NCBI GenBank assembly: GCA_021825295.1
Contig: JAKAHV010000015.1
Location: 1 to 64,000, forward strand
DNA from: Nitrospirota bacterium
GTDB lineage: Bacteria > Nitrospirota > Thermodesulfovibrionia > Thermodesulfovibrionales > JdFR-88
Direction: 5' to 3'
Length of the DNA stretch: 64,000 bases
Part shown: positions 55,335 to 55,836 of the stretch, in pieces
Layout of the letters: each line of letters opens with the position of its first letter
Position numbering within the stretch: the first letter of the stretch is position 1
Made by a program: the position numbers and the translations under genes
The notes under the pieces: generated by a model
Databases searched by the model: none
What the model was told of the DNA's origin: nothing
Seen by the model: the letters and a program-made list of their open reading frames with translations, nothing else

Positions 55335-55748
55335 TCATTTGCCGGCTGCCGCCTGCACAAACCCCTCCACGGAGAGATTAACATAGGGTCTTTTTGCGTC
55401 GTTGCTTTTCACAAGGACGTTTTTTGCGATATAGCCGCTCTTGCCCTGGGTATCGATCCTTACCATGATGGTCCCTTTCCGCCCGGGCGGAAAACTTGCC
55501 GAACTGGCAAGCGCGGCCGTGCAGCCTCAGCCCGGTCTCAATCCCCTGATGAGGAGGGTCCGGTCGCCGGTATTCGTGAAAGTAAACCGGCCCTGAACGG
55601 ATGTCCCGGCCGCCACCTTCCCGAAATCAATGATCTCCGTGTCAAAGGAAATCCTCGGCTGGGCGTAGAGCAGGGAGGGGAAAAGGGACAAAAGGGATAT
55701 ACTGATTATGAAGGCCCGCGGTAAAAATAAAAAGCGCATACGTTTCAT
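55335..55748 (-). CDS. DUF1573-family secreted protein with in-frame TGA at the first Cys of the CGCT motif; candidate selenoprotein
   Basis: MKRMRFLFLPRAFIISISLLSLFPSLLYAQPRISFDTEIIDFGKVAAGTSVQGRFTFTNTGDRTLLIRGLRPG-[TGA]-GCTAALASSASFPPGRKGTIMVRIDTQGKSGYIAKNVLVKSNDAKRPYVNLSVEGFVQAAAGK*. Confidence 0.75.
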
Positions 55749-55836
55749 TATCCGATTATAAACAATCCATTTGATAATTGAAACGGTGGCCCCATATTTT
55801 TTATAGTAAATGGTTGGAGTTTGACCTGGAGAGTCT

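Follow-up and report, generated by a model that had tools for sequence, protein, structure and literature searches.

A probable selenocysteine-containing DUF1573 protein gene in a Nitrospirota genome, with fused and tandem relatives in the phylum

Introduction

Selenocysteine (Sec)-containing DUF1573 proteins form a selenoprotein family that has been known since reports of 2007-2008. The Sec-containing form with the motif UGC is listed in a 2022 review (PMC9312934), which cites a 2007 study of Olavius symbionts for it, and in a 2026 review (PMC13188914), in which proteins of this family have one Sec each. The same group appears in PMC2398784 under the designation OS_HP2, with the domain pfam07610 and the motif UxC, and it is represented in NCBIfam by the model NF041425, OS_HP2 family (seleno)protein. 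Cys-form DUF1573 proteins, in which the corresponding motif is CGCT, occur in Nitrospirae bacterium RBG_16_43_11, in Ignavibacteria and in Desulfuromonadales.

The window analysed here, that is, the whole stretch of 64,000 nucleotides from contig JAKAHV010000015.1 of a Nitrospirota bacterium, contains a further member of this family on the minus strand at 55335..55748. The first-pass annotation of this DNA had presented the gene as a new selenoprotein, a claim that does not stand, since Sec-DUF1573 proteins with UGC are already recorded in the three papers and the NCBIfam model named above. The window protein shares with these proteins the domain, the UGC motif and the existence of Cys homologs elsewhere; it differs in coming from Nitrospirota, and its relatives add fusions and tandem forms with two Sec residues. 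Against NF041425 it scores 76.7 bits (E 1.4e-21), below the curated cut-off of 100, and so falls outside the NCBI model and within the broader published family only, while a two-domain relative (L165) scores 142.2 bits. Neither the fusions nor the tandem form with two Sec residues was found in the freely accessible papers searched, and both may be undescribed; for the two-Sec form this possibility follows from the single Sec per protein given in the 2026 review.

By itself, the window gene changes no concept. Together with its relatives, it extends a little-studied selenoprotein family through much of the phylum, with a clean SECIS element supported by base-pair covariation. Functional leads for DUF1573, a domain of unknown function, come from the partners to which it is fused, from its operons and from the forms with two Sec residues. 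Standard gene calling splits the window gene and hides it. As the switch between Sec and Cys follows the presence of SelA, the family can usefully mark Sec use among uncultured Nitrospirota.

The gene and its in-frame TGA

The reading frame opens with an ATG at 55748, contains one in-frame TGA at 55529-55527 and closes with a terminal TGA at 55337-55335, all on the minus strand, with no frameshift and no further stop. The mechanical ORF reaches upstream to 55973, and the start of the protein is placed at 55748 by homology. When the TGA is read as Sec, the product is a protein of 137 aa including Sec74 (MKRMRF...RPG-U-GCTAALASSASF...AAAGK), composed of a signal-peptide-like N-terminus and one PapD/Ig-like DUF1573 domain. 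The whole protein matches PF07610 (DUF1573) with E 7.4e-23 and 80.9 bits, passing the curated cut-off of 26.1. Each half also matches this profile alone, the part 5' of the TGA with E 2.7e-7 at profile positions 1-38 and the part 3' of it (55338..55526, minus strand) with E 7.6e-8 at positions 43-98, which bears out the initial view that one intact DUF1573 gene is split by a single in-frame TGA.

This TGA (55527..55529, minus strand) takes the place of the first Cys of the conserved CGCT motif, as had been proposed: Sec-form orthologs carry TGA at the site and Cys-form homologs carry TGC or TGT. It thus lies inside an intact, conserved coding sequence and aligns with Cys in homologs, as is characteristic of selenoprotein genes. 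The putative Sec would occupy the first position of UGC, the motif position that defines Sec-DUF1573 proteins. The last position is Cys76, encoded by TGC at 55521..55523 (minus strand), which is the sole Cys of the protein and a possible partner of Sec74.

AlphaFold2 confidently predicts a PapD/Ig-like sandwich (mean pLDDT 90.2) in which Sec74 sits in the turn that joins strands 65-72 and 76-80. Among solved structures, the best match is PDB 2QSV, an uncharacterised protein of Porphyromonas gingivalis (Z 14.1, rmsd 1.5, 101 residues), which has the same fold as the predicted domain but whose aligned domain lacks a Cys at the UGC site. Sequence and fold searches of the PDB returned the PapD/Ig-like fold only, and no function. 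By eye, the N-terminus resembles a signal peptide with the end LLYA-QP.

The bSECIS-like hairpin

Bacterial SECIS (bSECIS) elements follow a spacing rule from the UGA to the loop. In the window gene, the hairpin CTTGCC-AGTTC-GGCAAG lies at 55495..55511 on the minus strand, with a stem of 6 bp, or 7 bp if the G-U wobble 55512/55494 is counted. Its stem begins after a gap of 15 nt from the TGA and its loop after 21 nt; the second base of the loop AGTTC is a conserved G at 55504. Position, spacing and loop base agree with what the first-pass annotation had described, and its suggestion that the hairpin acts as a bSECIS is strengthened by the comparative data that follow.

Covariation was assessed in 42 gap-free sequences of the 6-base-loop register. 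All seven hairpin pairs changed on both sides in this set, and 90.8% of cells pair; cells with double changes numbered 56, as opposed to 21.6 in shuffles, and the covariation score was 0.522 against 0.261 in shuffled alignments (0/500 shuffles). Sliding one strand by 1 base lowered the pairing to ~43%. RNAalifold recovered the same helix unaided, and the G at loop position 2 is invariant. Shuffling of synonymous codons in 29 genes yielded hairpins less stable than the natural ones (mean z -2.0, with related genes treated as independent), and for the window gene alone the same shuffle gave a marginal p of 0.047.

Of the 62 Sec forms, 45 have at least 6 consecutive pairs, a length that no Cys form reaches (0 of 45); these are descriptive figures in which kin sequences are counted separately. 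The Cys forms, which share the domain and the motif position with the window protein, thus differ from it both in carrying TGC/TGT at the site and in lacking the SECIS hairpin. The window gene belongs to a family with a 5-base-loop register, in which the amino acids are LASSA; most others have a 6-base loop, so that protein and RNA change together across loop registers. Judged by these comparisons, the RNA hairpin is evidently under selection, and the element combines a position just 3' of the UGA, a G early in the loop and covariation, the features by which a bSECIS is recognised.

Conservation of Sec and Cys forms

A match was obtained in 35 of the 61 relatives searched, and a TGA stands at exactly this codon in 30/30 best orthologs. 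For wider sampling, 395 genomes of the phylum were searched, named genomes were scanned and the codon was read in the loci fetched; with duplicates excluded, this yielded 62 distinct sites of the Sec form and 45 of the Cys form, the latter with TGC or TGT. The scan of named genomes, run with a query carrying Cys for Sec, returned Cys forms alone. Compared with its congener, the window gene shows dN 0.11 and dS 0.49 (dN/dS ~0.22) 3' of the TGA and dN 0.21 and dS 0.50 (dN/dS 0.43) 5' of it; several other dN/dS comparisons were saturated. The lower ratio after the TGA indicates that the downstream part is translated and selected. Taken together, the alignments mark the UGA as a conserved sense codon.

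A tree of Sec and Cys forms requires five state changes, and it is poorly resolved, for which reason no direction of change between Sec and Cys is claimed. Among genomes with a readable ortholog, those with the Sec form have SelA in 79 of 87 cases and those with the Cys form in 4 of 20 (Fisher p 6e-10, kinship among genomes ignored), the Cys form in the phylum being found mostly in genomes without SelA (16/20). One family (f23; L135, L137, L140 and L143 in genomes G101, G062, G088 and G071) is an exception to this association, having SelA together with a Cys-form DUF1573. Eight Sec-form genomes lack a full SelA. Three of them (G227, G308 and G090) possess a full SelB, which suggests that the missing SelA reflects assembly gaps. 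Two genomes, both rated 99-100% complete, contain SelA and SelB fragments only (G257, locus L097) or neither gene (G041, locus L090); in both, DUF1573 retains its in-frame TGA and the frame beyond it is intact, and a recent loss of Sec decoding is possible there.

Sec machinery and tRNAs of the window genome

The window genome encodes SelA (601.2 bits), SelB (365.7 bits) and SelD (342.2 bits). The SelD gene has its own in-frame TGA in the context SSCSG-U, making it a second selenoprotein gene in this genome. The search for Sec machinery recommended by the first-pass annotation therefore succeeded for these three proteins but not for the tRNA: neither the Rfam model nor the tRNA sequence of the congener nor an anticodon/T-loop pattern recovered a canonical tRNASec(UCA) from the assembly, which is 91% complete. 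The congener DNA that flanks tRNASec likewise has no clear counterpart there. Both congeners possess tRNASec(UCA), and ARAGORN identified 25 of 29 loci from relatives, those of both congeners included, as tRNASec with UCA. The joint absence of the tRNA and its flanks is consistent with a gap in this incomplete assembly.

The Rfam tRNASec match in the window genome (62.4 bits; G000:C6:41833-41924, L001:1501-1596) is the sole Sec-like tRNA of the assembly, a tRNASec-shaped molecule with the anticodon GCA and U73, adjoining a yedF-like ORF. It combines a tRNASec-like body, one of the two selC* anticodons (GCA or UCA) and U73, features of the selC* tRNACys described in PMC7609411, citing Mukai et al. 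2017. These tRNAs have been reported from hosts including Nitrospirae, and forms with a UCA anticodon are known in Desulfobacterales (PMC7609411). The tRNA of the window genome resembles selC* tRNACys in its tRNASec shape, GCA and U73, but its acceptor/T arm is 8/5 by eye, whereas the reported arm is 8/4 with an unpaired A51a bulge. The anticodon GCA reads UGC/UGU, so that a selC*-type tRNA of this kind cannot read UGA and is not the decoder of the window codon. Beside the GCA tRNA there is also an ORF that, by eye, resembles a 2-hydroxyglutaryl-CoA dehydratase activator. The same kind of tRNASec-shaped tRNA with GCA and U73 occurs at L070:1501-1595.

Alternative readings of the UGA

The simplest alternative, which the first-pass annotation itself had raised, is that a point mutation or a sequencing or assembly error turned TGC/TGT into TGA in one genome. 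TGC and TGT are indeed one base away from TGA, and Cys forms exist; however, TGA occupies this codon in each of the 30 best orthologs, whose assemblies are separate, and likewise at the 62 distinct Sec-form sites, and the hairpin covaries. With such conservation in dozens of genomes, a mutation or error has practically no probability left. The split in the ORF track would likewise be accounted for if the gene were a pseudogene ending at a genuine stop, and decay could be starting in G041 and G257, where the gene is kept with the Sec machinery missing or fragmentary. In the window gene, this reading is opposed by the low dN (0.11, with dS 0.49) after the TGA, which is lower than that before it, by the lack of frameshifts or other stops and by the presence of SelA, SelB and SelD in the genome. 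Decay is excluded by the conservation of the gene in dozens of genomes, and a pseudogene is highly improbable. It is just as improbable that the UGA is read as an amino acid other than Sec, for example as Cys through a selC*-type tRNACys opal suppressor. The tRNASec-shaped tRNA beside the yedF-like ORF, with the Cys identity element U73, and the failure to find a canonical tRNASec in the assembly would favour that reading; the GCA anticodon of this tRNA, the three Sel proteins and the prevalence of tRNASec(UCA) among relatives argue against it.

Sec decoding is the reading preferred here, and the window gene very probably encodes Sec at its UGA. Codon 74 would be read as Sec by SelB together with Sec-tRNASec, under the direction of the hairpin just 3' of it within the coding sequence. 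The predicted product is a small exported Sec-DUF1573 selenoprotein that would be N-terminally targeted and consist of a single PapD/Ig-like domain, with the motif Sec74-Gly-Cys76 placed between two strands of that domain.

Fusions, tandem forms and possible function

In many orthologs, a cytochrome c domain stands after DUF1573; it carries two CxxCH motifs and a conserved MPG[FW] (Cytochrome_CBB3, E ~1e-11); this two-haem-motif cytochrome c is the commonest fusion partner and lies C-terminal to Sec-DUF1573 in L022, L027, L029-L033, L035, L036, L158 and L159. In a subfamily with the motif U[RK]AC, DUF1573 instead follows a SCO1/SenC domain, which is in frame before the UGA (PF02630, E 3e-18); an N-terminal SCO1/SenC-like domain is present in L038, L160 and L166. 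In other relatives DUF1573 is preceded by a beta-domain, part of which is carboxypeptidase-regulatory-like. Tandem DUF1573 proteins with two in-frame TGA codons were found at L161 (G353:C267), L164 and L185 (both G038:C23) and L165 (G375:C46). They carry the motifs URxCT and UK[KR]AT, a separate AGTTC hairpin for each TGA and an N-terminal beta-domain.

Genes of the SCO1/SenC or beta-domain type at L184, L185 and L187 are accompanied by a NosD-family gene (TIGR04247, 350 bits), which at L185 is fused to a NosR-like part, and by genes for an ABC transporter, a transglutaminase-like protein and a ResA-like thioredoxin; genes for a cytochrome bd-like protein and a cytochrome c come next in two of these three loci. 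The tandem copy of G038 sits in such a NosD/ABC/thioredoxin/cytochrome operon. At five Sec-form sites (L037, L111 and the second domains of L161, L164 and L165), no Cys occurs within 4 residues after Sec. The Sec/Cys pair with a redox role that had been put forward for the window protein would consist of Sec74 and its possible partner Cys76; an obligatory pair is unsupported family-wide because of these five sites.

The fusions, operons and tandem forms suggest a place in the periplasmic respiratory chain and in copper or thiol handling. For the window protein, the most likely role among those considered would be to pass electrons, or a soft metal such as copper, to and from respiratory proteins of the periplasm, since its relatives are fused to cytochrome c or SCO1/SenC or lie in NosD-ABC-thioredoxin-cytochrome operons; from these associations, a respiratory redox or copper role of the window gene is proposed tentatively, as something short of an even expectation. 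A different possibility, held with slightly less conviction, is that Sec74 and Cys76 are ligands of copper(I) or another soft metal in a periplasmic metallochaperone and not a thiol/selenol electron carrier. The SCO1/SenC fusions and the operon context of relatives are compatible with this, as are the Sec-form sites without a nearby Cys for a selenenylsulfide and the Cu/Zn efflux selenoprotein with UxC listed in PMC13188914, while the commonest fusion, with two-haem-motif cytochrome c, suits electron transfer equally. It is conceivable, at a similarly guarded level, that Sec-DUF1573 serves more generally as a modular selenium redox or copper unit of the Nitrospirota periplasmic respiratory chain, which would be free-standing in the window, fused to cytochrome c or SCO1/SenC in other members, and present as a tandem two-Sec form in NosD-ABC-thioredoxin operons, with a second Sec that has no Cys nearby.

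Genomic neighbourhood and putative promoter

The window gene is itself unfused, and its neighbours (uvrA, ApbE, UbiA, PilZ and GGDEF) are uninformative on function. Synteny is kept inside the family and extends outside it mostly to uvrA and ApbE only. A TATAAT box at 55755..55760 (minus strand), 6 nt 5' of the ATG, may be a leaderless promoter, because with a box so near the ATG transcription would begin at the start codon or close to it; a consensus promoter scan did not list it. A TATAAT about 5-7 nt 5' of the ATG is shared by several orthologs (L010, L011, L012, L015, L020, L021 and L034).
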